Origin: a virus
Length of the DNA stretch: 20,810 nucleotides
Strand: one strand, 5' to 3'
Virus record (IMG/VR): IMGVR_UViG_3300020469_000322
Location: 1-20,810 of that record
Positions 951-20,209 of the stretch are shown here, in pieces (the first letter of the stretch is position 1; each line of letters begins with the position of its first letter). Position numbers and translations under genes: made by a program. The notes under the pieces are model-generated. The model saw only the letters and a program-made list of their open reading frames with translations. It made no database searches and was not told the DNA's origin.

Positions 951-1206
951 ATTTAATGAAGGACAACTAATACAAGAACTACAAGCTTATATTGATGGTA
1001 CATATGGTGAGCATTATGCTTCCGATAAGTATCAAGCAACAGACATCATCATTGATTCAGGACATGGTGAGGGGTTTACTCTTGGTAACATTATGAAGTA
1101 CGCTAAACGTTATGGAAATAAAGAAGGAAAGAACAGAAAAGACTTGCTAAAAATACTACATTATGGTATAATAATGTTAAACGTACACGATACAGAGAAC
1201 TCATAA
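940..1206 (+). CDS. DUF3310 family phage protein
   Basis: This 88-aa protein has the hallmark of the DUF3310 family, which is common in phage replication regions: an acidic helical lead-in, then GFTLGNIMKYAKRYGNK (residues 45-61) and an Asp-Leu-Leu-Lys helix ending in HYGIIML. DUF3310 proteins are sometimes labelled nucleotide kinases, but no P-loop is present here and I do not support that label. The gene lies between endonuclease I (11-base overlap) and nrdA, where the stop TAA and the start ATG share one base. This position suggests a role in nucleotide or DNA metabolism, but the family's function is unknown to me. Confidence 0.82.
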   Translation: MNYKFNEGQLIQELQAYIDGTYGEHYASDKYQATDIIIDSGHGEGFTLGNIMKYAKRYGNKEGKNRKDLLKILHYGIIMLNVHDTENS

Positions 1207-3101: not shown

Positions 3102-3102
3102 T

Positions 3103-3252
3103 ATGAAATGTTGGCATTGTGAAACAGAATTAATATGGGGTGGAGATCACGACATAGAAGATGAAAATGATGAGTACGTAATGGAAACTAATTTAAGTTG
3201 TCCTGAATGTAATTCATTTATAATAGTATATTTACCAAAGGAAAAATTATGA
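3103..3252 (+). CDS. Zinc-ribbon protein between nrdA and nrdB (49 aa)
   Basis: This very short gene fills the gap between the two reductase genes. It has two Cys-x2-Cys knuckles (KCWHC at residues 3-6 and SCPEC at 33-36) separated by an acidic stretch (HDIEDENDEY), a classic four-cysteine zinc ribbon. It starts one base after the nrdA stop, has an AGGG ribosome site upstream, and its TGA overlaps the nrdB ATG (ATGA). The tight fit on both sides makes it very likely real and translated with nrdA and nrdB. Its role is unknown. It could be a nucleic-acid-binding ribbon or a partner of the reductase. A redox role is possible from the CxxC pairs, but it has no thioredoxin or glutaredoxin fold. 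Confidence 0.85.
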   Translation: MKCWHCETELIWGGDHDIEDENDEYVMETNLSCPECNSFIIVYLPKEKL

Positions 3253-4232
3253 GCTTATTAGACACAAGAGATTACTACAAACCTTTTGATAACCCGTGGA
3301 TGTTTGACTACTACGTGTTGCAAAATCAAATGCATTGGATGCCAGAGTCAGTACCATTACACACCGATGTAAAAGATTGGCAAGAACTAACACCAGTAGA
3401 AAAAAATTTACTAACACAAATATTTAGATTGTTTACTCAGTCAGATGTAGATGTTGGTGCAGGTTACGTTGATAGGTATATGCGTATCTTTAGAAAACCA
3501 GAAGCTAGAATGATGATGGGTTCATTTGCTAACATGGAATCAATTCATCAACATGCGTACAGTTTGTTATTAGATACAGTTGGTATGCCAGATATAGAGT
3601 ACAAAGCTTTTGCAGAGTATGAAGAAATGTCAAACAAGCATGAGTACGTACATAATATTAAAACAACTAAGTCAGATAAAAAAAGTATTGCAAAAACTTT
3701 AGCAGTTTACTCCGCCTTTACAGAAGGACTGCAGTTGTTTTCTAGCTTTGCAATCTTGTTAAACTTCCCACGCTTCGGACGTATGAAAGGTATGGGGCAG
3801 ATTGTTACTTACTCTATTCGTGATGAGTCTATGCACGTTGAAGCTATGACTAAATTGTTTAGAGAGTTTATTCAAGAGAACCTTGATATATGGACAGACG
3901 ATTTCAAAGCAGAAATATATGAGATATGTAGACAGATGGTAGACCTTGAGGACAAGTTCTTAGATTTAGTGTTTGACATGGGAGACCTTGAAGGACTTAC
4001 TAAGAAAGATATGTATGCTTACAATAGATATATAGCTGATAGAAGATTACTACAGCTAGGATTAAAAACAAACTATGACCAGAGAGAAAATCCTCTTGGT
4101 TGGTTGGACGAAGTGATGGGTGTTGAACATCAAAACTTCTTTGAAGGTCGTGCTACTTCTTATATGAAAGCAGGACTACGTGGTAGACAAGATAAGATAA
4201 CTTTTGCAAACTTGGAGAGTGATAATGGTTAA
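3249..4232 (+). CDS. nrdB: Class Ia ribonucleotide reductase, radical-generating beta subunit
   Basis: This is the small subunit that holds a di-iron centre and a tyrosyl radical and passes the radical to NrdA. All metal ligands can be placed by spacing against E. coli NrdB: Asp66, Glu97 and His100 (ESIHQHAY), Glu159 (FTEGLQLF), then Glu193 and His196 (RDESMH). The 34-residue gap between the last two glutamates equals that in E. coli. The radical tyrosine is present as Tyr104, four residues after His100, so this is the Tyr-radical type. It is 327 aa against 376 in E. coli. An AAAGGA site precedes the ATG, which overlaps the zinc-ribbon stop; the end overlaps the next gene by 8 bases. Confidence 0.95.
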   Translation: MSLLDTRDYYKPFDNPWMFDYYVLQNQMHWMPESVPLHTDVKDWQELTPVEKNLLTQIFRLFTQSDVDVGAGYVDRYMRIFRKPEARMMMGSFANMESIHQHAYSLLLDTVGMPDIEYKAFAEYEEMSNKHEYVHNIKTTKSDKKSIAKTLAVYSAFTEGLQLFSSFAILLNFPRFGRMKGMGQIVTYSIRDESMHVEAMTKLFREFIQENLDIWTDDFKAEIYEICRQMVDLEDKFLDLVFDMGDLEGLTKKDMYAYNRYIADRRLLQLGLKTNYDQRENPLGWLDEVMGVEHQNFFEGRATSYMKAGLRGRQDKITFANLESDNG

Positions 4233-4813: not shown

Positions 4814-5227
4814 TTATTCTCCGTTTTGTTTTTGTTGCCAATCATTTATGGCTTGTTTTATACTATCTTCTGCTAACACACTACAATGCAACTTGATAGG
4901 TGGTAACTCCAAAGCATCAGCTATGTCTTTATCTTTTATCTGACAAGCTTCTTCTATTGTCTTTCCTTTTAACATGTCAACAAACATAGTACTAGATGCT
5001 ATTGCTGATCCACAACCATAAGTTTTAAACTTAACATCATCAATTATATGCCTGTTACCATAAAGTTTACATTTAATTTGTAACTTCATTACATCTCCAC
5101 ATGCAGGTGCACCAACCATACCAGTACCTACATCTAAATCTTTAGGGTCAAATCTACCTACTGAATATTTTTCAGGATTATTTAAAACTCCTTCAAATCT
5201 ATCTACAACTTTACTTGAGTATGCCAT
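4814..5227 (-). CDS. iscU: IscU-type iron-sulfur cluster assembly scaffold
   Basis: This is a full-length homologue (137 aa; E. coli IscU has 128) of the scaffold on which IscS-derived sulfur and iron are built into [2Fe-2S] clusters. All key residues are there: Cys43 and Asp45 in GAPACGDVMKLQI, Cys72 in KTYGCGSAIASS, and His114 and Cys115 in KLHCSVLAED. The HscA-binding LPPVK loop is present as LPPIK (residues 108-112). The difference from bacterial IscU is a short insertion near residues 15-24 (LNNPEKYSVG) and a more variable C-terminus. No IscS, HscA, HscB, ferredoxin or A-type carrier is in the window, so it must rely on the host's partners. It is translated in the late - strand unit; its ATG overlaps the stop of the 66-aa gene by one base. 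Confidence 0.95.
   Translation of the reverse strand: MAYSSKVVDRFEGVLNNPEKYSVGRFDPKDLDVGTGMVGAPACGDVMKLQIKCKLYGNRHIIDDVKFKTYGCGSAIASSTMFVDMLKGKTIEEACQIKDKDIADALELPPIKLHCSVLAEDSIKQAINDWQQKQNGE
4818..4822 (-). promoter_or_regulatory. Ribosome-binding site that fixes the start at 4812
   Basis: GGAGA on the - strand lies 5 bases before the ATG at 4812 and inside the 3' end of the IscU gene. The in-frame ATG 33 bases further upstream has no comparable site. Confidence 0.6.
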
Positions 5228-5428: not shown

Positions 5429-7579
5429 TTATAGTGGTGGTTGTAATTGTCTCATTTCAATTAGTGTTTCTAAACTCTGACCTGCCATTTGATAAAAGCC
5501 TTCGATGTTATCTGACAACATATTGTTTGCATAAATATCTTTAGACTCGTACCATATATCTTGGTCTGGTAATGTAACTAATCTATAGTTATTAAAGTTA
5601 GGTACAAATCCCATGTAAGCTATAATAGTATTCTCTGAGCCATACTCACCAGTCTCTTCTTGTTTAGCTTCAACATCATCTTGAGCAGCTTGTAAATTCT
5701 GGGCTATAACATTAGCTACAGTTTGTTCTGTTTCTGTAGCTGATGCATCTGTAGAAATTGACACATCTATTTGACTTTGTAAAGTTTGAGTAGGTGTTAC
5801 ACTAACTGCAACACTTGTTGTCTCTACTGTTTCAACTTCAACACTTGTAGAGCTTGTAGAATTACTCACACTAAAGCTTGTACTCATATCTAAAACTTGA
5901 TTGTTTTGTGCAGTAGATGCTGTAAACTGTGCTGACATACTAGGTGAGTTGCTTGTACTCATACCACCACTAGAACTAGACGATGATACGCTAGAAGCTC
6001 CTGTCGTTCCGCCTGTAGCGTGTGTAGAATTACCGGATGTAGTACCACTAACACTAGATTGAGCTGTATTTAAAGTAGAAGATATAACGTTTAGTGCCAT
6101 TTCTCTACTTATTGAACTCTTACCCTCTGGCAGTATAGCACCAACAACTATCTCTTCTTCTTGTAGTTCTTCTACTCTTTCCTCTTCTACTTCAGCTATA
6201 CGTTCTTCTTCCATCTCTTCACGCATCTCTTCTATCTCTTCAAAGACTTCTTCTACAGCTTCTTCTTCAAAGACCTCTTCAATAAATTCTTCTTCAGGTT
6301 CTTCTACATATGCAAGTTCTTCTTCCATCCTTGTCTCTTCTTCAAACCATTCTTCTAGTTCTTCAATAGTTTCCAATTCAATAAATGTTTCAGGTTCTCT
6401 ATAATCTTCTACAAGGAATGTTTCTTGAAAGATAAACTCATCAATCAATAACTCTTCTACCGGCATAAAAATTTCTTCTTCTTGCATAGTTAAGTCATAG
6501 ATAACATCAAAAGGTTCGTAGTATTCTTCAGGAGAAAACATCTGCTCAAAGATTATTTCTTCTTCATATATATACTCAGGCTCTTCAAAAAAGTCATACT
6601 CAAGTTCAAAGACATACTCTTCAAAAATTTCTGGCTCTTCAAAAGTGTCATACATGTCATACTCTTCTTGATAACCATAGTTAATCTCTTCTTCAAAGTA
6701 AGCCACTGAATTTTCTTGTCTATAACCTTGACAAAACGGACCGTATTGTGGGTCTAAATCACATTGAAGATCGTCATATGCATCCCAATAATAAGGACAT
6801 GACTCAGAATATAACTGATCTATATCACATTGTTGAGTTTGATAAGCTGCTGCATAACCAGAACAACTTGAATTGTTTAAAGGATTACTACAATCAATAT
6901 TATTACCACTACCAGAACCATATAACGAACCACCATTTTCTAACATATCATTAAATGATGTGTCGTTCCAATTAGTATTTACACAACTACTAAAGTTAGT
7001 AGAGCCTGTATTACATTCATCGTGAAATAAATATTGATAGATTTCAGAGCTACCACTACCTACTTCACCAATTAAAACATCGTGATTAATTATATCTAAT
7101 TCACCATATCTATACTCAAAAGTATTGTTAGTCCAAAGTATAACTTCAAAACTGTTATCAGATGCACGATTATACTCACGCATATCATACCAACCAAAAA
7201 CTGTCATATCATTAAAATTTTTTGCTAACATCTTTGAACCATTGTCTCGTATGAGATCAGTCCAAAAAGGTAACATAGTATAAGTATATTGATTTGATAA
7301 AGGGTCTGGTGTATAATCAGAGCAATAAGCTCCGGAGGTTTTAAAGTGAAGACAACCATTCGTAGCCATTCTAGCAGAGCTAAACGTTTGATTATAAAAA
7401 TCAAAGTTAAACCCTAGATTAAAAGCATTAGAGACTTGGTCGTCTCCAGAGTTTAGATTGGTTGTACCTGATTGATTGGTAAGGTCTATTAAAGACTGAT
7501 TGCCTTCGTAGATATACTGACTAAAGACATTAAGACTTAAGAGACACGCTACTGCGTAGCATAAAATTCTTTTCTGCAT
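5429..7579 (-). CDS. Exported multidomain protein: nidogen-like head, Cys repeats, Glu-rich arm
   Basis: This 716-aa protein starts with a Sec signal peptide (MQKRILCYAVACLLSLNVFS, residues 1-20). Residues about 45-190 resemble a nidogen (NIDO)-type extracellular domain: GFNFDFYNQTFSS, MATNGCLHF, then MLPFWTDLI. Residues 230-285 hold three Cys repeats. Residues 295-478 are extremely Glu-rich with regular aromatic and aliphatic residues. Residues about 505-625 are Ser/Thr-rich, and the C-terminal 75 residues (from YMGFVPNFNNYR) return to normal composition. There are 10 Cys after the signal peptide, an even number, as for disulfides. The start has an AAGG site and overlaps the previous gene by 31 bases. 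A surface or envelope role is inferred; whether it is in the virion or shed by the cell is not known. Confidence 0.85.
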   Translation of the reverse strand: MQKRILCYAVACLLSLNVFSQYIYEGNQSLIDLTNQSGTTNLNSGDDQVSNAFNLGFNFDFYNQTFSSARMATNGCLHFKTSGAYCSDYTPDPLSNQYTYTMLPFWTDLIRDNGSKMLAKNFNDMTVFGWYDMREYNRASDNSFEVILWTNNTFEYRYGELDIINHDVLIGEVGSGSSEIYQYLFHDECNTGSTNFSSCVNTNWNDTSFNDMLENGGSLYGSGSGNNIDCSNPLNNSSCSGYAAAYQTQQCDIDQLYSESCPYYWDAYDDLQCDLDPQYGPFCQGYRQENSVAYFEEEINYGYQEEYDMYDTFEEPEIFEEYVFELEYDFFEEPEYIYEEEIIFEQMFSPEEYYEPFDVIYDLTMQEEEIFMPVEELLIDEFIFQETFLVEDYREPETFIELETIEELEEWFEEETRMEEELAYVEEPEEEFIEEVFEEEAVEEVFEEIEEMREEMEEERIAEVEEERVEELQEEEIVVGAILPEGKSSISREMALNVISSTLNTAQSSVSGTTSGNSTHATGGTTGASSVSSSSSSGGMSTSNSPSMSAQFTASTAQNNQVLDMSTSFSVSNSTSSTSVEVETVETTSVAVSVTPTQTLQSQIDVSISTDASATETEQTVANVIAQNLQAAQDDVEAKQEETGEYGSENTIIAYMGFVPNFNNYRLVTLPDQDIWYESKDIYANNMLSDNIEGFYQMAGQSLETLIEMRQLQPPL
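6146..6697 (-). repeat. Glu-rich low-complexity arm within the 716-aa gene
   Basis: Residues 295-478 are dominated by Glu, with paired Glu separated by Phe, Tyr, Ile or Val, giving the + strand a long run of ttc/tct triplets. No exact repeat unit is kept, so this is compositional bias rather than a simple tandem array. Confidence 0.8.
6725..6892 (-). repeat. Three diverged 20-22-residue cysteine repeats
   Basis: Residues 230-285 contain three units of the form C-x2-D-x2-Y-x3-C-x2-Y-x2-A-Y: DCSNPLNNSSCSGYAAAY, QCDIDQLYSESCPYYWDAY and QCDLDPQYGPFCQGY. The first unit has Pro-Leu in place of the Asp/Tyr positions and the last is cut short. Six cysteines would allow one disulfide per unit. Confidence 0.75.
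7548..7560. other. Small perfect hairpin in the gene overlap
   Basis: GCTAC and GTAGC (7548-7552 and 7556-7560) form a 5-bp stem with a 3-base loop. It contains the TAG stop of the 364-aa gene and lies 17 bases inside the 716-aa gene. No T-run follows on the - strand, so it is not a usual terminator; it could be chance. Confidence 0.3.
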
Positions 7580-8643
7580 TGCCTTTTAGTTTTAGTTTTA
7601 GTTGTGTAGGTTTTTTTTACTAACCCAACTACATCTTTATTTATATTATCTCTGTTAGGATTCTTGTCGTAAGTACATTCTTTTATAAAAAGTTTTAATT
7701 GTTCTTTAGCATCAGGTCTTTTAGATTTGTTTTTTGACCAAGCTTTCTCAGCTTCTTTACCTATCTGACCTTGGTAAGGGCAAGGAGTACCAGCCATTTC
7801 CATAGCCTTAAATACTCTAGGGTCTTGACATAGTATTGAGACTGAAGCTACTTTCATACCGGTATCATACAGATACTTGGAAAGTTTTAAGCGTTCACAG
7901 TTAGTATCAGTAACTGTACGTCCTGTAGAGAACCCAAATACTTGCCCTTGATAAGCACCAGAACGACCTACAGTACAAAGGTCTTGAGAGTAAGACATAA
8001 TACTAGGTGCTATAGCAGAAGCAGGAGGTGCTTCGCTTTTTACGTTCTGATTGATTGTTTGTGTAGAGTTAGACTCGTTAATATTTCTATTAGTATTATC
8101 AGACTTTGTATTGTTATTATTGGTATTAGTATTATCAGTAGTAACATTAGAATCTGAAGTAGATTGATTAACATTAGTATTATTATTAGTATTTGTATTA
8201 TTACTAGTAGAATTACTATTGTTGTTTACATTTTGATTTACTGTAGAGTTTACAGTAGAGTTAGATGTAGACGTAGATGTGTTATTATTGTTATTAGTAT
8301 TGGTATTATTACTGGTAGATGTAGAATTATTAGTATTGTTATTTGTGTTAGTTGATGTATTAACATTAGTATTATTATTAGTTGAGGTATTAGTATTCGT
8401 ATTTACGTTAGTATTATTATTGGTGTTAGTATTCGTATTAGTATTAGTATTTGTATTATTATTAGTATTATTATTGGTGTTAGTATTTGTAGTAGTCGTA
8501 TTATTAGTAGTAGTTAATTCATTGTCTTCACAATACTGTGTACCTGCAGTACAATCATCTGCACTTACAGCAAACGACATTGCCCATAAACTTAATATAA
8601 GTAATGGTCCAAAAAAATTTTTATTTATATCTCCTCTTGACAT
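7549..8643 (-). CDS. Exported Asn/Thr-rich protein with conserved cysteine C-terminal domain
   Basis: This 364-aa protein has a clear signal peptide (hydrophobic core FFGPLLILSLWAMSFAVSA, likely cleaved after Ala28). A short cysteine pair follows (Cys31, Cys38), then a tract of about 160 residues made almost only of Asn, Thr and Ser (residues 43-200). The C-terminal domain (about 205-364) has normal composition and includes LCTVGRSGAYQGQVFG, GMKVASVSILCQDPRVF and AGTPCPYQGQIGKEA. It holds six cysteines, giving an even total of eight after export. I have seen similar C-terminal domains in marine phage genomes, but no function is known to me. A perfect AAGGAG site precedes the start. The gene lies between a holin-like gene and the 716-aa exported protein. 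Confidence 0.85.
   Translation of the reverse strand: MSRGDINKNFFGPLLILSLWAMSFAVSADDCTAGTQYCEDNELTTTNNTTTTNTNTNNNTNNNTNTNTNTNTNTNNNTNVNTNTNTSTNNNTNVNTSTNTNNNTNNSTSTSNNTNTNNNNNTSTSTSNSTVNSTVNQNVNNNSNSTSNNTNTNNNTNVNQSTSDSNVTTDNTNTNNNNTKSDNTNRNINESNSTQTINQNVKSEAPPASAIAPSIMSYSQDLCTVGRSGAYQGQVFGFSTGRTVTDTNCERLKLSKYLYDTGMKVASVSILCQDPRVFKAMEMAGTPCPYQGQIGKEAEKAWSKNKSKRPDAKEQLKLFIKECTYDKNPNRDNINKDVVGLVKKTYTTKTKTKRQCRKEFYATQ
8044..8517 (-). repeat. Asn/Thr/Ser codon repeat tract
   Basis: About 470 bases encode residues 43-200 of the 364-aa protein, mostly as alternating AAT/AAC and ACT/ACA/ACC codons, seen on the + strand as repeated att, agt and ttagtatta. Units are short and imperfect, and many N-x-T triplets result. 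Confidence 0.88.
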
Positions 8644-8648
8644 TTTGT

Positions 8649-8654
8649 CTCCTT
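8649..8654 (-). promoter_or_regulatory. Strong Shine-Dalgarno site of the 364-aa gene
   Basis: AAGGAG on the - strand ends 5 bases before the ATG at 8643, directly after the stop codon of the 125-aa gene. It is the best ribosome site among the lysis-type genes, which suggests high expression of the exported protein. Confidence 0.65.
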
Positions 8655-9032
8655 TTATTTATTTCCTGCTGGTTTTTTAGATGTGCTAGTATACAGACCA
8701 AACCAAGCTGCTCCGGCTCCAACAACAACAGATATTAAACCTGACTGTTCCATACTAGGGTCCGGTAAATCCATATACCAAAAAACTACATAATATAATA
8801 AATACATATATATACTAAGAAAAGCTCTAGGTATTATTCTCCAACTATCTATAGCTTGTGCTACAAATATAAGTTTTTGATAGGGGTTATCGTTCTTGAT
8901 ATCCTCTAACTCTCTTATCCTATCTTTTAATGCTGACTTTTCTTGTAGTAACTCCATGAATTTATTAAGATCAATTTCAACCTCGTTCCTATCCATGTCG
9001 CCACTAAATCCACCCATATTATTTTGTTGCAT
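8655..9032 (-). CDS. Holin-like protein with two membrane spans (125 aa)
   Basis: The N-terminal half is polar and helical with heptad-like spacing (residues 20-48). Then come two hydrophobic segments: about 68-88 (RAFLSIYMYLLYYVVFWYM) and about 97-115 (SGLISVVVGAGAAWFGLYT), separated by a short acidic loop with Pro-Asp-Pro. The C-terminus is short and Lys-rich. Small size, two spans and a charged tail are typical of phage holins. The second span looks like that of putative holins I recall from marine phages. The gene sits between another membrane protein and an exported protein. The holin call is inference from topology and context; no endolysin gene is adjacent to confirm it. Confidence 0.7.
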   Translation of the reverse strand: MQQNNMGGFSGDMDRNEVEIDLNKFMELLQEKSALKDRIRELEDIKNDNPYQKLIFVAQAIDSWRIIPRAFLSIYMYLLYYVVFWYMDLPDPSMEQSGLISVVVGAGAAWFGLYTSTSKKPAGNK

Positions 9033-9476: not shown

Positions 9477-9609
9477 ATACCTCTTGTAATAGTTCTTCGT
9501 AAAGTCTTCTAAAGTTTTCTAATTCCATAAAGCCCAACCCTTGTCCAATCTGGTGCATTCTATAAATGTTATAGGCTGTGTTTAATTGTTTCTCTGTGTA
9601 AAGTAGCAT
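9460..9609 (-). CDS. Small conserved-looking protein (49 aa)
   Basis: This short gene fills what would otherwise be a 130-base gap. Its ATG overlaps the stop of the 1582-aa gene (TAATG) and its end overlaps the next gene by 17 bases, the same coupling used elsewhere in this unit. The product is helical and charged, with aromatic residues (MLLYTEKQLNTAYNIYRMHQ at the N-terminus, then FRRLYEELLQEVYD). No Shine-Dalgarno site is clear, so translation probably depends on reinitiation. I recall similar tiny proteins beginning YTEKQLxxAYxIYR in marine phages, always of unknown function. Confidence 0.68.
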   Translation of the reverse strand: MLLYTEKQLNTAYNIYRMHQIGQGLGFMELENFRRLYEELLQEVYDVPI

Positions 9610-12600
9610 TAGTCGTGAATGGTCCAGAGTTCATTTACTCTGTCAATTGTTTCTTGATTAAATTTTGGATTCTTAGAAGATAAAGTATGATGATTATATA
9701 AATATGCATCTTTACCTGCTTGTTGATCGCCACCTAACAAGTAAGGAACCAAATATTTATCACTACCTTTTGCTTCTAAAATATTACCATAAAATAATAA
9801 TGTTTGTGTATCTGAACTTAATTTACTAGCATCGTTATCTTTAGGAATTGGTGTAAATAAATTACGTTTATCTTCTGGTAATCTTTTTAAAGTTCTATTA
9901 TAAGCTACAGGTAATGTACCTTCTAAAAATTGATGGTATCCTGCAGCACTACTACCTCGTAAGTTACCTCCTTTAGGAACATTTCTATTACTACTTTCAA
10001 TATTTCTAGTATTTTGTTCTAGGTCCTGCATTCTTTTTTTAAATAAATCTATATTAGCTTGTTCAGCATACTCTGGATTTTCATTAAGCATTCTGTTATA
10101 ATGATAACTTAAAATATCATTTTGAAAACTATTAAAATTAGGGTCATTTTGTCTATTCAATCCATCTACAAAAGCTGCACTTTTATTATATGCTTCTTTA
10201 ATTGTATCTTTAATAGTACCAGCAAATGTACCTTCATTAAAACCTAACCTATCCATTTGTTCTTGGTAAGGTTCACCAGTAAACGGGTCAACTCTATCTG
10301 CTGGATTTTCTTTAGTAAAAGGTACGTTGTATTCTCCTTCGACTATACCACCCACAGATTTACGTGTCCTCATTAATTCCATAGGTGTATATATTCTGTA
10401 TTGATTATCAATGTCTTCTATAATTGGTAGATAATGATAGTCTAGTAGTAAATTATTATACTCATCATAAAAATTTGAAAAAGTCATACCTTTACTAAAA
10501 TCAACTTTTCTTTTAATAGATTTTAATTGATACTCTGTAAGTCGTAAAGGAACAAATGAATTATTACTTGCTAAAAAATTATTTCTTTCAGAAGATGTAA
10601 AATATCTTAGAGCTGATTGTGCAGTATTACTAATAGTTTTTATATCTGTGTTAAAATGTCGTGCAGCTTCTAGTGCCAACTTTGCATCAGTAAAACTTTT
10701 ATAATAAGAACTGTTAGCTTTTTGATATGTATTTAATATTTGTTGTGGAGTTCTTCCTTCTATTATATTTGATGTTATGTAATCTTTTTGTTCTTTATTT
10801 TTATTACTTAAGTCATACATTTTAAAAGATAAAGACCTTTTAATTGAAGATGGCTTAACAGTTATTGTCCTCTGACCTGTCAATCTAGAGAATAATTCTG
10901 TTCCTAAAGATAACTCTCCCTTTTTAATTCTTTCAGCTTTTTTACCGCCTAGTAAACTTAAATCATCTTGTATCTCTCTAGGTATTACTCCTGTAGCAAG
11001 ATGATTGAATGAAGCCATTAAATTATTATAACTTAAACCACCTTCGCCCGGATTATAATCAGGAATTAATCTACCAGTTTCATAGTCTTTACCTTGATTA
11101 AAGGTTACATCCAGAACTTTATCTGTTAAAATAGCAGGACCAGTAAAAGGTTTTAGAAATAACATCATAGATTCTTTCATACCGTTTAAAACTTTATCAC
11201 CTACAAATTTTGAAGGTATTGTTGGGTCTGTTGCTTCATTTAAAAATGCTCTAAAAACATCTGTAATTGGAGCTGAAGGGTCTGTGTAAGTTAAATCAAT
11301 ATATTCAATATTACCATCTTCATCTCTATCAAAAATTAAGGCACTGTTTTTTGACCATTCTGGAAGATTTAAATGTCTTATAGCTCTTTCATCTTCGTCT
11401 GTAACTCCCCAAACTTTTTTACTTAAATCTGTAGCTCCTTTACCCATACCGTATGTTACAGCTATTTGAGAAGCTAATCTTTTCATTCCTCTTTCAACCA
11501 TTACTTCATTACCAGTTCTTATTTCTTTCATTCCACGCATTAGGGTATTATAATTATTACGATACTGTTCTGCAGTAAATGAAAAGAAATTACCAACAGG
11601 CAGCTTTCTTAATTGTTGAATGCCCGGTGCAATTAAATCATAAGTAGGCATTGTATCTCTAATAATATCTGCTGCTTCTTGTTTCAAAACATCAATACTT
11701 TTATTAGGATATGCCTTTTGTAAAGTTTGTAGTTCTTTATTATAACCTGCAATTCTCCACATATCGTCTTCAGCTACATATACATTAGTTAGATTTTTAT
11801 TAACCCTAGCAAGTTTTGATGAAGCAACTTTAGGATTTGTAATTAAAGAATTATTTTTTGTACTTACATAATCATTAAAAAGTTTTTTAAATTCACCAAC
11901 TCTAACATTTTGATTAACTAATCCAAGACGTTGATACTCTTCATATATTTCTGTTAAAGCTGCATCTTTACTTAATGGACTTTTTAACGGATTAATTTGG
12001 TTATCTAAAATTTTTAAAGCATCTGTAGTGTCTGAAGTAAAAGGATTCATTCCATTTCTCATAAGAATAAGTCCACCACCAACTGTATTTCTAACGTGCG
12101 TTGTTCCGTTATAAACAGTAGCAGCAGCTTGAGAAAAACCTTTTAATTTTAAAGCATACCCATAAGCCATAGCTAATTTACCGGGGTCAGGAACATTTTT
12201 CATTTTACTAAATAAATTAGCTATACCTTCTGTAGTATTAACTCCGTTTAATTTATGAAATCCTTTACCTACAATTTTTGAAGCTTCCATTTTTTTATCT
12301 GGAGCAACCGAATACTTTCCTGTACCTTTGAAAAACCACTTACCTAAACCATCTTTATATAAATCATCCATTAATTTATATTGAGTAATTTCACTGGATA
12401 AAGTTTCTATAGTTCTAAACACTGAAGTAGAAGCAGATACCTTTCCCCCTAAAAGCTCATCAATAGCCGGAGAAATATTTTTTCTTGCTTTAAAAACTTT
12501 TTCTGCATTTTTAGTACCAAACACAGAGTTAATATGAGATTCAAAATTATTAAAAGATTTACCTTTATTTTTATTTAATAAATTATCTACATATTTTTCT

Positions 12601-14357
12601 GCTTGTCTTTGATACCACCCAGTAGGTCTAGGTCTAACTCTTCCAGCAGTTTGATCTGAAGATTGTAAACCTATTTTAATTTGAGATACTGCATTATCAT
12701 ATAATTCTTTACTAGGTTTATAACTAGGATTTTCAAAAGCTTCATAAGTTTTTCTAAGATATTTACCCATATTAGAGTTAATTTGTTCTCTAATTTTTTT
12801 AGGTATATATTTAGATTGAGCTAACATAGTACTTAAGTTATCAATGTTCTCTCGTGCTGCTAAAGCATGTGGTTGAATTTGTTTTGGTAAATCTTTTAGT
12901 TTAACTAATTTTTTATTTTTCTTTTGTCCAGTTAAATAATACTGAAATAAATCTTCAATTTGATCTTCTGTATATTTACCTTCTTTAGAAATTTTTTTAA
13001 TAGAGGTTACTAATTTTGAATGTATATCCATTGCCCTAGCTGACCAAGCAATTTTATTATATTCTGATTTCTTAATAATATCTAACATACCCGGAGCATA
13101 CATACCACCTCTAGTTGTTAAAGCATAAGTAGTTTCTTGTAACATTCGCCACCCTTTATTAGCAAGACTATCTTTACTTGCGAAAGAAGAGTTTAGGTCA
13201 CGGATAATTGGAACGTCAATTTTTTGTTTTACTGGTTTTACAATTTTGTTTGCTGAATCAGATTGTCTAGAAACATTTATAAATTCTTTAAAACGAGCAA
13301 CACCTTCTGGTCCAGATTCTTTAATTTTATTTACTAAATTTGTAACACCTTTTACAGCAAGTTTACCTGCTCCTAGTGTAACTCCAAATGCTGAACTAAA
13401 TACAACACCATCTAATAATAAACTTAATCGTCTGGCTGCTTCTGGACTGTCTTCATCAGCATCTAAATAATCAAACAAAGCAGACAACTTAGTATCATCA
13501 TCTCCTATAAAATTAGAAATACCACCAGCTACAATTGCAAAATCAGGGTCGTCTACAAATGTAAATTGAGCAGCAACCTCTGCTTTTATTAATGGTTCAA
13601 ATTTTTCTAATCTACCAATTCTGGTATCTGCTCTACTTTCTAAAGTTTTTTGAATTTTAGAAGGTCTTCCTCTTTTCCTTCTCGGAGCAGATAGTCCTTT
13701 TTTAACAACTTCTAAACCAGCTTTAGTAGGTCTTTTTGTTATTGCCATTCCAGCTATTAATTCACTAACAGGTCTACTAATAGCTTCTGCAGTTGTTGTT
13801 GCTTCTTCTAACTCATAATAAGTTTCACCAGTTTTAGCATCTACTTTTGTTTCGTAAATATCTTTACCAGCTAGATTTCTAAAAAACTTATCTGTATTTC
13901 TTCTAATCTCTGTTTCATTTGGTAAAACTGCTCCAGTTATTTTTCCTGTACCGGGTACAAGAGTATCACTTACTCTCGTTACTACACCCCTACCTAAATT
14001 TAAAAGAGCTTCAGTAGCTTCACTATAAGGAGTAACAACAGCTCGTCTTGTACTTTTCCAACCTCTACCTTCTTCTTTAGCTATTTTTTCTAACTCGCTA
14101 ACACCAAATAAAGATTTGTAATATTCGGGATTATCTTTTAGTTTATCTTCAGGTTTAGTAGGATCAAAAAATTCTTTTATTGTGTGGTCAAATTTAGTTT
14201 CTGCACCCTCAATAGATAACTTTACAAATTCATCAAAGTCATAATTTTGATTAAAAACTTTTTTAGAATTGTAAAGAGTTTCTAATTCTTGAATATCAGT
14301 TTCTAGATTTCTAGTTTTACGAATACTATCTTTATAGATTTCAAAGCGTGATGCCAT
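9609..14357 (-). CDS. Giant virion protein, probable DNA-ejection (internal virion) protein
   Basis: At 1582 aa this is the largest gene in the window and resembles, in size and position, the giant ejection proteins of podoviruses (T7 gp16 is 1318 aa). It is mostly helical and Lys/Asn-rich. Visible parts are an AT-hook-like motif (RRKRGRPSK, residues 226-234), a hydrophobic Gly/Ala-rich segment (about 310-345, LLLDGVVFSSAFGVTLGAG) that may insert in a membrane, a central region near residue 750 (THVRNTVGGGLILMRNGM), and a C-terminal domain (about 1442-1582) with a lysozyme/transglycosylase-like SSAAGYHQF motif. AAGGAT precedes the ATG. The gene follows the 551-aa gene after 9 bases. An alternative is a large polyvalent protein with unknown enzymatic parts. 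Confidence 0.8.
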   Translation of the reverse strand: MASRFEIYKDSIRKTRNLETDIQELETLYNSKKVFNQNYDFDEFVKLSIEGAETKFDHTIKEFFDPTKPEDKLKDNPEYYKSLFGVSELEKIAKEEGRGWKSTRRAVVTPYSEATEALLNLGRGVVTRVSDTLVPGTGKITGAVLPNETEIRRNTDKFFRNLAGKDIYETKVDAKTGETYYELEEATTTAEAISRPVSELIAGMAITKRPTKAGLEVVKKGLSAPRRKRGRPSKIQKTLESRADTRIGRLEKFEPLIKAEVAAQFTFVDDPDFAIVAGGISNFIGDDDTKLSALFDYLDADEDSPEAARRLSLLLDGVVFSSAFGVTLGAGKLAVKGVTNLVNKIKESGPEGVARFKEFINVSRQSDSANKIVKPVKQKIDVPIIRDLNSSFASKDSLANKGWRMLQETTYALTTRGGMYAPGMLDIIKKSEYNKIAWSARAMDIHSKLVTSIKKISKEGKYTEDQIEDLFQYYLTGQKKNKKLVKLKDLPKQIQPHALAARENIDNLSTMLAQSKYIPKKIREQINSNMGKYLRKTYEAFENPSYKPSKELYDNAVSQIKIGLQSSDQTAGRVRPRPTGWYQRQAEKYVDNLLNKNKGKSFNNFESHINSVFGTKNAEKVFKARKNISPAIDELLGGKVSASTSVFRTIETLSSEITQYKLMDDLYKDGLGKWFFKGTGKYSVAPDKKMEASKIVGKGFHKLNGVNTTEGIANLFSKMKNVPDPGKLAMAYGYALKLKGFSQAAATVYNGTTHVRNTVGGGLILMRNGMNPFTSDTTDALKILDNQINPLKSPLSKDAALTEIYEEYQRLGLVNQNVRVGEFKKLFNDYVSTKNNSLITNPKVASSKLARVNKNLTNVYVAEDDMWRIAGYNKELQTLQKAYPNKSIDVLKQEAADIIRDTMPTYDLIAPGIQQLRKLPVGNFFSFTAEQYRNNYNTLMRGMKEIRTGNEVMVERGMKRLASQIAVTYGMGKGATDLSKKVWGVTDEDERAIRHLNLPEWSKNSALIFDRDEDGNIEYIDLTYTDPSAPITDVFRAFLNEATDPTIPSKFVGDKVLNGMKESMMLFLKPFTGPAILTDKVLDVTFNQGKDYETGRLIPDYNPGEGGLSYNNLMASFNHLATGVIPREIQDDLSLLGGKKAERIKKGELSLGTELFSRLTGQRTITVKPSSIKRSLSFKMYDLSNKNKEQKDYITSNIIEGRTPQQILNTYQKANSSYYKSFTDAKLALEAARHFNTDIKTISNTAQSALRYFTSSERNNFLASNNSFVPLRLTEYQLKSIKRKVDFSKGMTFSNFYDEYNNLLLDYHYLPIIEDIDNQYRIYTPMELMRTRKSVGGIVEGEYNVPFTKENPADRVDPFTGEPYQEQMDRLGFNEGTFAGTIKDTIKEAYNKSAAFVDGLNRQNDPNFNSFQNDILSYHYNRMLNENPEYAEQANIDLFKKRMQDLEQNTRNIESSNRNVPKGGNLRGSSAAGYHQFLEGTLPVAYNRTLKRLPEDKRNLFTPIPKDNDASKLSSDTQTLLFYGNILEAKGSDKYLVPYLLGGDQQAGKDAYLYNHHTLSSKNPKFNQETIDRVNELWTIHD
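9612..10034 (-). other. Lysozyme/transglycosylase-like C-terminal domain of the 1582-aa protein
   Basis: Residues 1442-1582 contain GSSAAGYHQFLEGTLP, the pattern S-S/T-A-x-G-x-x-Q-F/L seen after the catalytic glutamate in lysozyme-fold muramidases and transglycosylases such as lambda R (STGAGRYQLL). Later LSSDTQTLLFYGNIL resembles the S-x-x-x-Q-D helix of that fold. Candidate catalytic residues are Glu1447 or Glu1454. This is a motif-level call. Confidence 0.5.
13656..13682 (-). other. AT-hook-like motif in the 1582-aa protein
   Basis: Residues 226-234 read RRKRGRPSK, matching the AT-hook core RGRP with basic flanks, which binds the minor groove of AT-rich DNA. It sits in a basic linker after about 220 residues. 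Confidence 0.6.
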
Positions 14358-14366
14358 TAACTATCC

Positions 14367-16022
14367 TTAATAAGTGTCAGGGTCTGCCGGATCAAAGTCT
14401 GATGTTGTTGTTTTTAATCTGGATGTAATTTGGTCGTATCCCGGTATATCTAAATCGTCTTCTCCTGTTATATCTAACAAACGTTTTGTTGTTCTAATTC
14501 TATTGTCAATGTATTGTTTCTTTTGTAATTCAAAAAACTCATTAGCATAGTTTCCATTGTCAATACGTAATCTATTATCCGAAGCACTCAAACCACCTAG
14601 TTTTCCAAGCTCTGTTAATTCTGCGTATGCTTCTGGGTTAGTCTCACTAAATACAGCTTTTATCTCATCACTAACTGGTGTATTTTTAATTGCTTGAATT
14701 GTTAATGTGTTTCCTAATTCAATTTCAGCAGCTATAGAAGAAGAAGTTTCTTTCCATACAGCTTGTCCAATTTGTTCCTTAGTAAGCAGACCTCTACCTT
14801 TAGCAATTTGAGCTTTCATATATAAGTTATCTTGTTCTTTTAAGAAAGCTTCTTGTTCTTTAATGTATTGGTCTGAACCCGGAACACCACTAAATGTTCT
14901 ATTATTTGCTTCTATTGCTAGTTCACCATAGAACCTTGCATCATCTAATAAGTCTTGATTTAAATTTGTAATACCAGTAGCTTTACGTATTTCAGCAGCT
15001 AATGCTCTTTCTTTTTGATTTTGTGTCATATTGTTTATAACATCAGGACTTGAATTAAAACGATCTGTTGCTTCTTTAATTTTTTCTTTATTTTCAACTA
15101 AGTAACCTTGAACAATGTTAGATGTAATAATCTCTTCTGCTTTTCCTAAAGTTTGTAATGATGGGTCAAGCTGTAAGAATTCTCTTTGTGAAGCATTATA
15201 AATTCCCGGATTTTGAGAATTAGTAAGATTAAATTTATCCATTTCTTTTATAAACTCTGTTCCAGTAATTCTAATCTTTTTAAGTTCTAACACTGGTAAA
15301 TTTGGTGTTTTTCCTTTACTTGATGGTTTGTTGTAAAGATTTTTTTCACTTAGTAATTTATTGTAAGACTCTTCAGCTTTAATATAATTGCTTTCTAATT
15401 TTTGATCTCTATTTTTACCTATACCAACTTTGTTTAACACTTTATGTACTAAACTTAACTCAGTAGGACTAGTAATTTTTCTTCGTTCAGCTTTAAATTT
15501 ATTTAACACTGGTTCAGAGTAAGCTTCAAACGAACCTAACCTACCTGCTTTTTCAGGATCATATTCATTTTTAATAAATGAGTCATATTGATTTGTAGAA
15601 TATTCATTTTTCCAAGTTCGTTTCATTTTGTTGGCATCTTCATTCGAACCATCAAACCTTGTGGACATACCTTGCTCAGTTACATATTTATCAAAAGCTA
15701 ATTCTGCATCTGCATCATAGTATTCAAAAATACCTTTACTCTTAATATCATCATATTTATTTTGTAATTTAAATTGATTATCATAATTAGATTTAGCTTC
15801 TGCAGCAGCAATAATTTTTCTATCTTCTAAATCTTGTAAATTTTGCATAACTTCAGATTCCATTTTACTTTCTCTAGCATTAAATAAAAATGATGCTACT
15901 AATGCATTTCTCCTTCTGTTACTTGTTTTATTATTACCAGAAAAGTAAGCTGCAGCTATATCACCAAACTTTATACCTGCACTTTTTCTACCTAATAAAC
16001 TTGTAAAATCTTTGTTTGCCAT
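14367..16022 (-). CDS. Virion-associated protein of unknown function (551 aa)
   Basis: This is a soluble, highly helical, Lys/Glu/Asn-rich protein. It starts MANKDFTSLLGRKSAG, has a Gly/Ala segment at about residues 16-30, then a basic patch (NRRRN) and long charged helices. No enzyme motif or membrane span is seen. Its position directly upstream of the giant ejection-type protein, with a 9-base gap, and one base after the 197-aa gene suggests a virion internal or tail component, as the gene before gp16 is in T7-like phages. A strong AGAGGAT site precedes the ATG. Assignment as structural rests on context; mass spectrometry of virions would settle it. Confidence 0.72.
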   Translation of the reverse strand: MANKDFTSLLGRKSAGIKFGDIAAAYFSGNNKTSNRRRNALVASFLFNARESKMESEVMQNLQDLEDRKIIAAAEAKSNYDNQFKLQNKYDDIKSKGIFEYYDADAELAFDKYVTEQGMSTRFDGSNEDANKMKRTWKNEYSTNQYDSFIKNEYDPEKAGRLGSFEAYSEPVLNKFKAERRKITSPTELSLVHKVLNKVGIGKNRDQKLESNYIKAEESYNKLLSEKNLYNKPSSKGKTPNLPVLELKKIRITGTEFIKEMDKFNLTNSQNPGIYNASQREFLQLDPSLQTLGKAEEIITSNIVQGYLVENKEKIKEATDRFNSSPDVINNMTQNQKERALAAEIRKATGITNLNQDLLDDARFYGELAIEANNRTFSGVPGSDQYIKEQEAFLKEQDNLYMKAQIAKGRGLLTKEQIGQAVWKETSSSIAAEIELGNTLTIQAIKNTPVSDEIKAVFSETNPEAYAELTELGKLGGLSASDNRLRIDNGNYANEFFELQKKQYIDNRIRTTKRLLDITGEDDLDIPGYDQITSRLKTTTSDFDPADPDTY

Positions 16023-16023: not shown

Positions 16024-16617
16024 TTACTTATCCTCTTTACCTAATAAACTATTAGGTTGTTCTTGTTTTTCTAATAAACCTTTTGGTAATTCAATTTGTT
16101 CTATTTGTTCTCTAACTTCTACTGGTATAGTTTGTGGATTAATCCTATTAATGGTTTGATTTTTAATTTCTTGTAAAGCTGTTAAACCACTTTTCAAAGT
16201 TTTTTCTTGTTGTTCCCCAGTTATTTCTGGTTCTTTATCATCTTCCCCTGTATCAACAATATATTTAATATTTGCTTTCTCAGCCAATGCCATAATCATA
16301 TACATGGTTGGCTCCATTAATAATGACATTAAATCTGGATTCCACTTACCTTCTAAAAACCCAGAATACAAAACAATAGATGCAAGGTCTATAACACCTA
16401 CACCATTTGAAACTGACTCTAATAAGTTAGGAACTGTTTCTGGAGTTGTTAATACGCTAAATACATACAAAGATGCTTCTTTAGTATTAACAAACTCTGG
16501 TGGTTGTTCCCACTTATAAGGTTGCTTTGGGTCATTTGTAAGGGATTGTCCGGGTATAGATTTACCTGTAGCTAAACTATTACCTAAAAATTCTACTGCT
16601 TTTTCTGATATTGCCAT
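16024..16617 (-). CDS. Conserved marine-phage structural-type protein (197 aa)
   Basis: The N-terminal part holds a distinctive motif (IPGQSLTNDPKQPYKWEQPP, residues 21-40), followed by a mostly helical domain with GKWNPDLMSLLMEPTMYMIM and an acidic, Gln/Glu-rich C-terminal tail that ends in a Leu-Leu pair motif (NSLLGKEDK). I recognise the PGQSLTN-x-P-x2-PYxWEQPP motif from virion-region proteins of marine podoviruses and cyanomyoviruses, where it is annotated as hypothetical or structural. The length is typical. The gene abuts its neighbours by 1 and 4 bases, and an AGGATAGGA site precedes the ATG. The molecular role is unknown. Confidence 0.75.
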   Translation of the reverse strand: MAISEKAVEFLGNSLATGKSIPGQSLTNDPKQPYKWEQPPEFVNTKEASLYVFSVLTTPETVPNLLESVSNGVGVIDLASIVLYSGFLEGKWNPDLMSLLMEPTMYMIMALAEKANIKYIVDTGEDDKEPEITGEQQEKTLKSGLTALQEIKNQTINRINPQTIPVEVREQIEQIELPKGLLEKQEQPNSLLGKEDK

Positions 16618-16621: not shown

Positions 16622-17788
16622 CTATCCTATTGCTTGTGGAGTTGCTAATGGTTGATAAAATTGTGATAAATAATTTGTAGACCCTGTACCATAAAGAGTT
16701 TGTTGAGATAACTCTTGGAAGCTCGGTATACGTGTCATACCTGTAGCTGCCATTGCTGAAGGTCCGACTGCTTGTATGTAATTTGCTTGTGCAGCTTCTG
16801 CTAATGGTTGAGATGCAACACCAGCACTTCTAAATGGTTCTTCGTAATCACCCTGTAAAGCTCCCATAATTGCACCTGTTGTAACACCTTGTATAGTATC
16901 ACCGACAAAATCATCACCAAATAATTTACCATCTTCACCTAATATTTTGTCTTTAGCAAAATTATAACCTCTTTCAAATATATTTGGAGTACTAGCAGTA
17001 GCTGCTTTTGATGTAGTAGTAGTTCCTAAAGCGTTAGGAACAGTAACTGCTAATTGTTCTGCAGCAGTACCAGTAACTCCTCCTACACCTCCTATTGAAG
17101 GTATACCAGTTGCTGAAACAGAAGCAGCACCGGGAAGAGTACTAGCAGTGGTAGCTAATTGTTGAGATGCTGTACCTGTTACTGCTGTTCCTGTTCCAGA
17201 TGAAAATGCAGTTGGAACTGTAGATGTTAATTGTTTTGAAATATTAACTTGCTCTGCAATATTATTTTTAACAACAGATAAAGTTTGATCTAATGCAGGT
17301 ACAGCTTCTTTAATAAGACTATCTGTAATAGTTGGGTAAACATTTGTAGACCCTGTAATAGCAGCACTATCAATTGCTGCAATTGCTGAATTAGCTTTTT
17401 CCATATTATTAGTTGCGGTAGCTATTTGACTAGCCATTGTTTGATTAGCTGCTGATTTTTTTACAGCTTCGGTTGCTAAGTTTTCACCAGCTAATAAAGC
17501 TGTTTCACTTAGTTTTGCCGATGCACCTACTGATTGTACTCCTGATGCAGCTATGGCTTCTGCAGCAGCAGCTTCACTTGCAGCAGTTGCAGCAGTTTGT
17601 GTGGCTGCAGTTGTTCCTGCTTTAGCTGCACCGCCAAAGACACTTTGTGCCCACCCTGTTAATCCTTTAGCTACTGGACCCATAAGCATGTATAATCCTA
17701 CAGCACCTATGACAGAACCTAATTTACTTCCAAAAACTTTATTAAGTTTTTTACTTATTTTTCTACCTATTTTTCTTAACCATCCCAT
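16622..17788 (-). CDS. Ala/Thr-rich virion protein with basic N-terminus (388 aa)
   Basis: The N-terminal 20 residues are strongly basic and amphipathic (WLRKIGRKISKKLNKVFG) and are followed by a hydrophobic segment (about 25-48, SVIGAVGLYMLMGPVAKGL) that could insert in a membrane. The middle is Ala/Thr/Ser-rich with few charged residues and has three loose repeats around KQLTSTVPTAF, QQLATTASTLPG and EQLAVTVPNALG (residues 185-255). The C-terminal part (270-388) is more ordered, with GDDFVGDTIQGVTTGAIMGAL. This composition is common in small ejection proteins of podoviruses, which form membrane channels, so that role is plausible but not shown. The gap to the previous gene is 3 bases and an AGAGGAT site precedes the ATG. 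Confidence 0.72.
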   Translation of the reverse strand: MGWLRKIGRKISKKLNKVFGSKLGSVIGAVGLYMLMGPVAKGLTGWAQSVFGGAAKAGTTAATQTAATAASEAAAAEAIAASGVQSVGASAKLSETALLAGENLATEAVKKSAANQTMASQIATATNNMEKANSAIAAIDSAAITGSTNVYPTITDSLIKEAVPALDQTLSVVKNNIAEQVNISKQLTSTVPTAFSSGTGTAVTGTASQQLATTASTLPGAASVSATGIPSIGGVGGVTGTAAEQLAVTVPNALGTTTTSKAATASTPNIFERGYNFAKDKILGEDGKLFGDDFVGDTIQGVTTGAIMGALQGDYEEPFRSAGVASQPLAEAAQANYIQAVGPSAMAATGMTRIPSFQELSQQTLYGTGSTNYLSQFYQPLATPQAIG

Positions 17789-17791: not shown

Positions 17792-20209
17792 TTAAAATCC
17801 TCTTCCACTTATATAATCTTCGTATGGATCATATGAATAACCAGCATTAAATGAATTACTTACTGTACCTAAAAGACCTGTTAGAAAATCATCATATTTT
17901 TCACCAGCCTTACCCTCGTTAGCTAAAGCTGTTGAGATTATCTGTGCCTTTCTATTTTCTTCGTTTTCGTAAGCTCTAAAATCAAAGTCAGCTTGATCTC
18001 TTAATTCTTGCCATAAGAATGATTGAGACTGCATACTTAAACCAAAAGCATTCTGTGCATTCTGCATATTAATTTGATTTTGTGCAGCAGTATTAACTGT
18101 ATTAGCTTGTCTTCTCCATTGAACATTAGAAGCTTCAACAGCAGCAGCATTTTGTGCGTTCCATTGATTCCTTGCAAAGTCTTGTTGAGAATTAAACTGG
18201 TCTACTTGTGTTACTAACTGAGCATTAAATTTATTTAAATCAGCTTCTCTTTGTGAATCTCTGGCTGCAGCAGCGTTATTTTGAGTAGCGTTAAACTGTT
18301 CCATAGCATTTGTTTGAGAAGCATTGTACTGATTCATCTGTGCATTAAGATTTGTCATAAACTGATTTGTTTGATTTTCACTAGCAGCATTAAACTGAGC
18401 TGCAGCATTTTGAGCTGATTGATTACTTAATAATCTTTGTTGATTTTGTTGAGCTTTTAAAACATTAGCTTGTTGATTATTACTTAGATTAGTTAAATCC
18501 ATTTGTAAGAATGCTTGAGCATTTTGTATTTGTGTACGTTGATTAAAGTCTGCTTCAGTTAAGTTAGCCTGAGACATTAATGCTGCATCTTGTATAATAG
18601 TTTGTTGGTCCATTGTAGCATTTGTAATACCTACAGTTTGTAAGAACTTACTATTAGAAAGTGCTATCTGTTGGTCAGAACTAAACTGAGCCATATTCAT
18701 TTGGAAAACGTTACTAGCATTTGTTAATGCTGTTTGTTGTACTCTTGCAGCATTAGACTCTGCTTCTTGAGCTTCTATAGCTCTTTGCTGTCCTACACTA
18801 GTTTGTATAGCTTGTGCATTAGACTGAGCCATTGGCATAGCTGATGTTATAATAGCATTAAACAAGGCATCTCTACCTACTGTAGATGCTGACATACCAC
18901 GTTGAGCTAACATAGATTCTACTGATGCAACAGCAGGTCTTGCCCATGCAGGAATTTCACCTTCTTCAATACCACTTAATAAACTGTCTAACTGATTAGA
19001 TACTAATGCTTCTTGTGGTAATCCTTCAATAATACCTCTTTCAGATTCACTAAAGTCTGCTAGTCTATCTTCTAAAGATTCTGGGTCATTACCAAGTTCT
19101 GTAATATCTGCATCACTTAATCCAGCGTTTGATAGTTGTTTCTTAGCTCTTGTAATACGTGATAAAGAACTACCTACGTTAATAGCAGCAGTTGATTTAG
19201 CTCCTTCACTTAACGTACCAACAACTCTTTCAGTTAAAGCACCCTCTGGAATATCAATGGTTGCAGATTGAGTTGGGTCTATACGTTCAACACCTGCAGC
19301 TTGTGCAACAGCATCTGTTGATACTTCTCCAGTTGCAGCATCTACTTTTGCGTCCGGAGTTACAGTGGTTGCTGTCATTTGTGCAGCTTGTATCTCTTGT
19401 GGAGTTTGTGCAGTTGTTACATCACCTGTAGTAACTGTTTCTGGTGTTACTCCTTGTGCAGTAGCTGCTTTTGCTCTTTGTTCAGGAGTAAGAGCATCCA
19501 TTTTTGTTACAACAGTATCAGCAACAACTGGAATTGGATTTCCTTCTTCGTCTAATATAAGATTACCAGCCGAATCTCTTTGCATTCCACCAACTTTTTG
19601 AGCATCTGGAATAACTGCAGATTCAGATACAACACCTTGTGCAGATTGTGTAATAGTATCAGCAGTATCTTCAATACGAGCAGTTCTTTCTCTAGCAGCA
19701 GTAGTATCTATAATAAGTTGAGAACGTGCTGCTGCCAATCTAGCTTCTTCTGCTGCTAATCTAGCTTCTTCTGCTAATCTAGCTTCTTCTGCTAACCTAG
19801 CTTCTTCTGCTAATCTAGCTTCTTCTGCTAATCTAGCTTCTTCTGCTAATCTAGCTTCTTCTGCTAACCTAGCTTCTCTTTCTTCTTGAGTTTCAGTTTC
19901 TTCTGATGGAGGTGTTTCATCTACTACATTATCTTTACCACCACCTACACCACCTATTGATGGTGGTTTTGGAGGTATTTTATCATTAGGGTCTTTATCA
20001 ACAACAGGACTCGGAGCAGGAGTAGTCGTAGGCGTAGGAGTAGGAGTAGGAGTAGTAGTAGGTTCTGGAATATTTGGTTCAGCACGATCACGTTCATCAC
20101 CTCTTCTTTCAGGTCTTCTACCACCTTTCTGATAACCAACTCTACCCCCTTGGGTATAGTCTTCTCTTTTAACTGAACTTCTTTTTCTGTTTTTTCTTTT
20201 ATTAGCCAT
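17792..20209 (-). CDS. Large repeat-rich virion protein with hendecad C-terminus (805 aa)
   Basis: Domains in order: a basic N-terminus (1-40) with GGRVGYQKGG; a Pro/Thr linker (about 48-70); six ARLAEE repeats plus two variants (113-160); an Ala/Thr-rich region (about 170-345); a conserved-looking core (419-470, IPAWARPAVASVESMLAQRG, then SASTVGRDALFNAII); and a long Asn/Gln/Ala helical region (480-760) in which aromatic residues recur every 11 residues. The C-terminus is RAYENEENRKAQII followed by a Tyr/Asp-rich tail. I recognise the core and the C-terminal region from structural proteins of marine podoviruses and cyanophages. The protein probably belongs to the tail or internal virion parts. 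An AGGA site precedes the ATG; the next gene starts 3 bases after its stop. Confidence 0.78.
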   Translation of the reverse strand: MANKRKNRKRSSVKREDYTQGGRVGYQKGGRRPERRGDERDRAEPNIPEPTTTPTPTPTPTTTPAPSPVVDKDPNDKIPPKPPSIGGVGGGKDNVVDETPPSEETETQEEREARLAEEARLAEEARLAEEARLAEEARLAEEARLAEEARLAAEEARLAAARSQLIIDTTAARERTARIEDTADTITQSAQGVVSESAVIPDAQKVGGMQRDSAGNLILDEEGNPIPVVADTVVTKMDALTPEQRAKAATAQGVTPETVTTGDVTTAQTPQEIQAAQMTATTVTPDAKVDAATGEVSTDAVAQAAGVERIDPTQSATIDIPEGALTERVVGTLSEGAKSTAAINVGSSLSRITRAKKQLSNAGLSDADITELGNDPESLEDRLADFSESERGIIEGLPQEALVSNQLDSLLSGIEEGEIPAWARPAVASVESMLAQRGMSASTVGRDALFNAIITSAMPMAQSNAQAIQTSVGQQRAIEAQEAESNAARVQQTALTNASNVFQMNMAQFSSDQQIALSNSKFLQTVGITNATMDQQTIIQDAALMSQANLTEADFNQRTQIQNAQAFLQMDLTNLSNNQQANVLKAQQNQQRLLSNQSAQNAAAQFNAASENQTNQFMTNLNAQMNQYNASQTNAMEQFNATQNNAAAARDSQREADLNKFNAQLVTQVDQFNSQQDFARNQWNAQNAAAVEASNVQWRRQANTVNTAAQNQINMQNAQNAFGLSMQSQSFLWQELRDQADFDFRAYENEENRKAQIISTALANEGKAGEKYDDFLTGLLGTVSNSFNAGYSYDPYEDYISGRGF
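18155..18397 (-). repeat. 33-base-period (11-residue) aromatic repeat in the 805-aa gene
   Basis: Residues Phe606, Phe617, Tyr628, Phe639, Phe661, Phe672 and Trp683 are exactly 11 apart, with one slot (Arg650) skipped. Most are preceded by Gln and followed by Asn-Ala/Ser. This is a hendecad pattern at protein level; the DNA units are diverged. Confidence 0.8.
19730..19873 (-). repeat. 18-base tandem repeat encoding ARLAEE
   Basis: Eight units share the + strand core aatctagcttcttctgct (some with aac for aat): six encode ARLAEE, one has an added Ala codon (ARLAAEE) and the last diverges (ARLAAA). Near-identity of the units at base level points to recent expansion by slippage or recombination. 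The peptide would form a single charged helix or coiled coil. Confidence 0.9.

Follow-up and report, generated by a model that had tools for sequence, protein, structure and literature searches.

The closest repeat precedent for an array of 11-residue units (hendecads) such as the one described here is offered by the tape measure proteins of siphophages. In some of these proteins, as described, an F or W marks each unit of 11 residues, and such units have been gained or lost (PMC3271669); 25 of the 29 proposed repeats of the TP901-1 TMP consist of 11 residues (PMC5099701). The latter report also states that infectivity was unaffected when one whole repeat of this TMP was changed to alanines, a result that calls for caution in the weight given to the aromatic residues of the repeat protein presented below. 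Hendecads are likewise found in the pilot protein H of phiX174, an unrelated ssDNA phage, in which, as described in PMC7354561, three hendecads of a Gln/Asn-rich helix are followed by heptads and ten copies assemble into a DNA-translocating tube whose lining consists of amide and guanidinium side chains; the three 11-residue units tabulated in that source carry no aromatic marker. With respect to gene organization, the nearest systems are the ejection modules of podophages. Genes resembling gp14, gp15, and gp16 are described as forming, in T7-like phages, an operon comparable to the cluster discussed below (PMC8954989; PMC10925440). Phage SU10 has five experimentally shown ejection genes, gp20–24, with products of 260, 350, 322, 551, and 1473 aa, and the Salmonella phage 7-11 cluster, gp020–024, encodes proteins of 412 (annotated 'DNA ejection protein'), 299, 181, 545, and 650 aa.

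The window, i.e., the whole analysed stretch of 20,810 nucleotides of the viral record IMGVR_UViG_3300020469_000322, contains a gene for an 805-aa protein followed by four further genes of the same cluster (Table 1). Window positions 18155–18397, for which an exact 11-residue aromatic repeat had been proposed in the original prediction, correspond to residues 605–685 of this protein. The slots exactly 11 residues apart are occupied by F606, F617, Y628, F639, R650, F661, F672, and W683; seven of the eight are therefore aromatic, with R650 as the exception, and the proposed main context, Q-[FYW]-N-[AS], surrounds five of the seven aromatic slots (the exceptions are KFNA at 661 and QFMT at 617). 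Within residues 481–780 there are eight F/Y/W pairs at lag 11 versus 1.45 expected, a number equalled in 0 of 2000 shuffles. Of 20,000 shuffles of residues 481–805, one gave seven aromatic slots out of eight at lag 11; when all lags between 5 and 30 were allowed, one of 2000 shuffles did so. None of the other window proteins tested has more than six of eight slots occupied at any of these lags. The observation is confirmed and is stronger than originally stated. When the window protein was taken by itself, a Fourier test of the aromatics in residues 465–760 showed a peak neither at 11 (power 0.5) nor at 11/3 (1.5), which we attribute to the aromatics outside the aromatic block being located in other phases. 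The block of residues 606–683 is real, but as a delimitation of the repeat it is too short: the true span extends from P459 to about residue 760, with a repeat length of 304 residues, and the aromatics mark a single sub-block within it. A distinct array, of the hexapeptide EEARLA, is present in the N-terminal part of the 805-aa protein, with 7.9 copies of its 18-bp unit.

Table 1. Positions, within the window, of the repeat protein, its parts, and the neighbouring genes of the cluster
Feature	Positions	Strand	Remarks
805-aa repeat protein	17792..20209	minus	Proposed internal/ejection protein; homologues in HMO-2011-type phages
EEARLA hexapeptide repeat, near residues 111–160, outside the 11-residue repeat	19732..19877	minus	18-bp tandem array
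Conserved non-repeat motif, P420-W422-A423 to P459, directly before the repeat	18833..18952	minus	Invariant alignment columns
Amide-rich hendecad block with few aromatics, residues 459–605	18395..18835	minus	Main site of length changes in relatives
Aromatic hendecad block, residues 606–700, to the WRR motif	18110..18394	minus	
Single continuous predicted helix, residues 558–763	17921..18538	minus	AlphaFold2
388-aa neighbour, second gene of the cluster	16622..17788	minus	
197-aa neighbour, conserved with the repeat protein	16024..16617	minus	Homologue in 153/174 loci compared
551-aa neighbour	14367..16022	minus	
1582-aa neighbour	9609..14357	minus	Homologues with differing C-terminal domains

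The 11-residue period is a property of the whole family. In 96 homologues pooled together, F/Y/W pairs at lag 11 number 623 against 105.5 expected (5.9-fold enrichment), with a 4.0-fold enrichment at lag 22, and the best eight-slot aromatic count among 173 sequences is seven in 93, six in 57, five in 20, and four in 3. F606 and F617 are invariant across 17 diverse members. In the first 96 rows (of 97) with both anchors, the F606–R700 interval has 61, 72, 94, 105, or 116 residues, all of the differences being multiples of 11. In a larger set comprising 173 homologue loci and the window, both anchors are present in 170 of the 174 rows, every one in phase. The P459–F606 interval takes 12 values there (70, 92, 114, 147, 158, 213, 224, 323, 334, 444, 664, and 774 residues) and the F606–R700 interval six (61, 72, 94, 105, 116, and 160). 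Loss of the phase in homologues had been named as the finding that would speak against the repeat, and the phase was kept in 169/169 rows for both intervals, the loci being redundant and several representing one contig twice, so that row counts overstate independence and the distinct lengths and the tree count carry more weight. To explain the lengths on a tree of 168 rows, P459–F606 must have changed a minimum of 19 times and F606–R700 a minimum of 6 times, at least 25 changes in all. The rows left out were L011 (no ORF hit), L067, L069, L131, and L142 (truncated or fragments), and L052 (no W422 anchor). If F606 had been assigned to the wrong unit, an indel out of phase would still show: P459 and R700 are anchored by motifs that lie beyond the array or at its edge, and the summed spacings are in phase as well. 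An out-of-phase W422–F606 distance in two rows was considered as a shift of the repeat and rejected, the shift being located in the W422–P459 loop. The control intervals behave differently from the repeat interior: start–W422 has 112 distinct lengths and R700–end 34, in both cases with all 11 residue classes populated, and five intervals of the neighbouring 1582-aa family (23-member alignment) are each spread across 8 to 10 of the 11 classes. In the longest homologues, arranged in rows of 22 residues, the 11/22-residue repeat is unbroken from the P459 motif to about the W733 region, and the self-similarity of these longest members is highest at multiples of 11, notably at 55 and 110 residues.

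The repeat is nearly free of Gly and Pro and rich in amides, with 1.0% Gly + Pro and 30.5% Asn + Gln among 55504 pooled repeat residues. In the aromatic blocks of 92 representatives, position 1 of the unit is F/Y/W in 82%, position 2 Asn in 75%, position 3 Ala in 64%, position 5 Leu in 23%, position 9 Val/Ile/Leu/Met in 58%, and position 11 Gln in 63%; positions 1, 5, and 9 share a single stripe of an ideal 11/3 helix. The suggestion that the aromatics line a tube is not supported by this arrangement, as the aromatic position shares its stripe with Leu and Val/Ile and looks like a packing face, N and Q being located elsewhere. In the upstream block (92 representatives) position 11 is I/L/V/M in 74%, position 3 is Ala, Leu, or Phe, and position 9 is hydrophobic, with Asn at position 2 and Gln at positions 7 and 8. 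Two hydrophobic faces are formed in this way, and hydrophobicity has its strongest harmonic at 11/4 rather than at 11/3. The two-faced upstream block argues against a plain hendecad coiled coil, and we read it as a helix that may touch neighbours on two sides; according to a rough estimate its faces are about 150 degrees apart on an ideal helix, which would suit a wide ring of helices. The helical character proposed originally agrees with the long helix predicted by AlphaFold2. With a clean alignment (61 sequences) the model has helices at residues 446–547 and 558–763 and a mean pLDDT of 63, with block means of 82–92 over residues 635–704 and lower values elsewhere, while with a noisier mixed alignment the helix is broken into several pieces at a mean pLDDT of 69; both are single-chain models of modest confidence. 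A PDB search with a 17-member profile returned no chain at E up to 1, and thus no match to phiX174 H, which is presumably among the chains searched, and Foldseek with the first model returned nothing at E up to 0.001.

By tblastn against 50,697 phage records, a match to the repeat protein was found in 25, annotated in 24 as 'hypothetical protein' and unannotated in one. The matching phages are Pelagibacter, Roseobacter, Puniceispirillum HMO-2011, Vibrio CHOED, Pseudoalteromonas Slicky01, Aeromonas, Rhizobium, and Sinorhizobium phages, and judging by these matches the source group of the protein is that of the HMO-2011-type phages and their relatives. According to its announcement, Sinorhizobium phage phiM6 most resembles HMO-2011 (PMC6256558), and the HMO-2011-type group is described as classed in Podoviridae (PMC9038755). 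A distant match in the phage record MW202701.1 bears the label 'huntingtin', probably an annotation artefact. The window protein itself gave weak low-complexity matches only in PHROGs and Pfam. Among 17 members, PHROG matches are to 'virion structural protein' in two and to 'DNA ejection protein' in one, the latter match covering the C-terminal part that holds Peptidase_S74. This domain, with which the CRP-3 and CRP-738 homologues end, is located at the C-terminal end in two of the seven members compared with Pfam one by one (the window, L085, L096, L095, L097, L083, and L163); it also terminates annotated ejection proteins and occurs in tail fibres and spikes. No experiments or proteomics on the family or the phage group were found in the literature searched, mostly at summary level.

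The cluster headed by the repeat gene is located on a single strand in the order 805-388-197-551-1582 aa, and in isolates this gene order is kept and the sizes vary widely. By position and size only, it resembles the SU10 ejection genes and matches the order of the Salmonella 7-11 cluster, which is preceded by a small gene, as is the repeat gene in the window. With podophage ejection proteins (T7 gp14/15/16, SU10, 7-11, and DEV gp72) the repeat protein and its neighbours share layout, sizes, a helical character, and, in some members, the S74 tail. A peptidoglycan hydrolase domain, another component of podophage ejection modules, is present in L050, a homologue of the 1582-aa neighbour ending in Glucosaminidase (E 7.5e-27). 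Domain searches found no peptidoglycan hydrolase domain in the window's own 1582-aa copy, and a lytic transglycosylase reading of its C-terminus was not supported. Of the 1582-aa homologues L050, L018, and L014, one carries Glucosaminidase and HNH, and two have a weak match to ADP-ribosyltransferase of polyvalent proteins, below its cut-off; the differing C-termini of these homologues look as if they were interchangeable cargo. A profile comparison of the repeat protein with nine phiEco32/7-11-type ejection proteins was not significant (20% probability, C-terminal tail only), nor were those with 7-11 gp020, SU10 gp21, and SU10 gp22, and homology of the 197-aa and 551-aa neighbours to ejection proteins of this type was tested and not found. 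The phiEco32/7-11-type proteins compared have no consistent 11-residue period, unlike the repeat protein. The likeness to ejection proteins is therefore one of position and presumed role, membership of an ejection or tape measure family by descent not being established; gene order is also what speaks for the original designation as a virion protein.

Other genes were noted in the window and in related loci. Window positions 1206–4232 encode the large and small subunits of a ribonucleotide reductase (HMO-2011 and phiM6 have a B12-dependent enzyme), a NifU-like Fe-S assembly gene (phrog_8429) is located at 4814–5227 within the phage structural region, and a 364-aa protein with a long Thr/Asn-rich repeat is encoded at 7549–8643, where an opposite-strand ORF (8279–8680) resembles its antisense shadow. 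Genes annotated as lysine acyltransferase, ferrochelatase, and 2OG oxygenase are found beside the repeat gene in the pelagiphage loci L087 (3783–4232) and L092 (1–1484).

We consider it probable that the 805-aa protein, built around a modular hendecad rod, belongs to the internal (ejection) proteins of a marine short-tailed phage of the HMO-2011 type. A small conserved domain would end at P459 and be followed by a nearly Gly/Pro-free, Asn/Gln/Ala-rich α-helix composed of 11-residue units of three turns each. In the aromatic block, F/Y/W at position 1, Leu at 5, and Val/Ile at 9 would form a single packing stripe, and the upstream block would present its two hydrophobic faces. These stripes probably mediate lateral contacts between copies of the protein, giving a bundle or tube which, once ejected, may help to carry DNA across the envelope. 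Whole units would be gained or lost because the stripes then stay in register, any other indel rotating the rest of the helix out of it.

The same regularity could be mainly of mutational origin, with in-register recombination duplicating or deleting multiples of 33 bp under little selection on phase. Repeats with a 33-bp period would bias recombination towards in-register events, and the longest homologues do carry the 55/110-residue super-repeats; nevertheless, neither the window gene nor that of the 1813-aa homologue contains a 33-bp array according to Tandem Repeats Finder, so that any likeness of the units in their DNA has been lost, and the free variation of the flanks, set against an interior changing solely by multiples of 11, together with the two invariant phenylalanines, makes this explanation very unlikely. 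As for the location of the protein, a tail needle, a central fibre, or another exterior trimeric coiled-coil fibre, its length tuned by whole-unit changes, would account for the tail-fibre-annotated genes directly upstream in HMO-2011 and CRP-207 and for the Peptidase_S74 domain at the end of two homologues, which serves as a chaperone in tail spikes and fibres; P22-like tail needles are length-variable helical trimers, as given in the title of a reference in the DEV paper. Nonetheless, the corresponding gene position in Salmonella 7-11, Cronobacter A24, and Aeromonas BUCT695 is that of annotated DNA injection/ejection proteins, the window repeat is rich in Asn/Gln and has few charges (12% charged and 35% N + Q in residues 500–700), and the upstream block, being hydrophobic on two faces, is unlike a simple trimeric coil, so that we consider an exterior fibre unlikely.

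An interpretation compatible with the ejection reading is that the protein acts as a true ruler, the number of units setting the length of a tail extension or of a trans-envelope channel. The unit length, the aromatic markers, the unit-wise gain and loss, and the largely helical nature resemble those of siphophage tape measures as described (PMC3271669; PMC5099701), the repeat ranges between relatives from 216 to 931 residues (32 to 140 nm as one straight helix), and the super-period of the longest members points the same way. The resemblance has its limits: here Y is also a marker, the context is mostly Q-F-N-A, homology is not supported by sequence, and none of the 174 sequences matches the strict pattern 1 that Belcaid et al. 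(2011) gave for tape measures, with seven [FW] markers in a row. The group, being assigned to Podoviridae in PMC9038755, has no long tail to measure, there is no known length read-out, and no correlation is seen between repeat length and the size of the giant gene downstream (r = −0.03, n = 87). A measuring function is on balance rather unlikely. Similarly doubtful is the fuller proposal that a short-tailed lineage dominating marine waters possesses a helical ruler of modular design, i.e., a tube-forming ejection protein whose length, about 30 to 140 nm of helix, is given by the number of units (often gained in tens) and adapts the DNA channel to the envelope of the host.

The presence of such an array in a short-tailed phage suggests that aromatic repeats of 11 residues, familiar from tape measures, are not confined to long tails; should the proposal of a modular ruler be true, tape measure logic itself would exist outside long tails. 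A hendecad rod of variable unit number in a short-tailed phage would provide a concrete handle on the passage of DNA across two membranes, since either whole units or parts of units can be removed from the repeat and the consequences for DNA delivery could then be measured.
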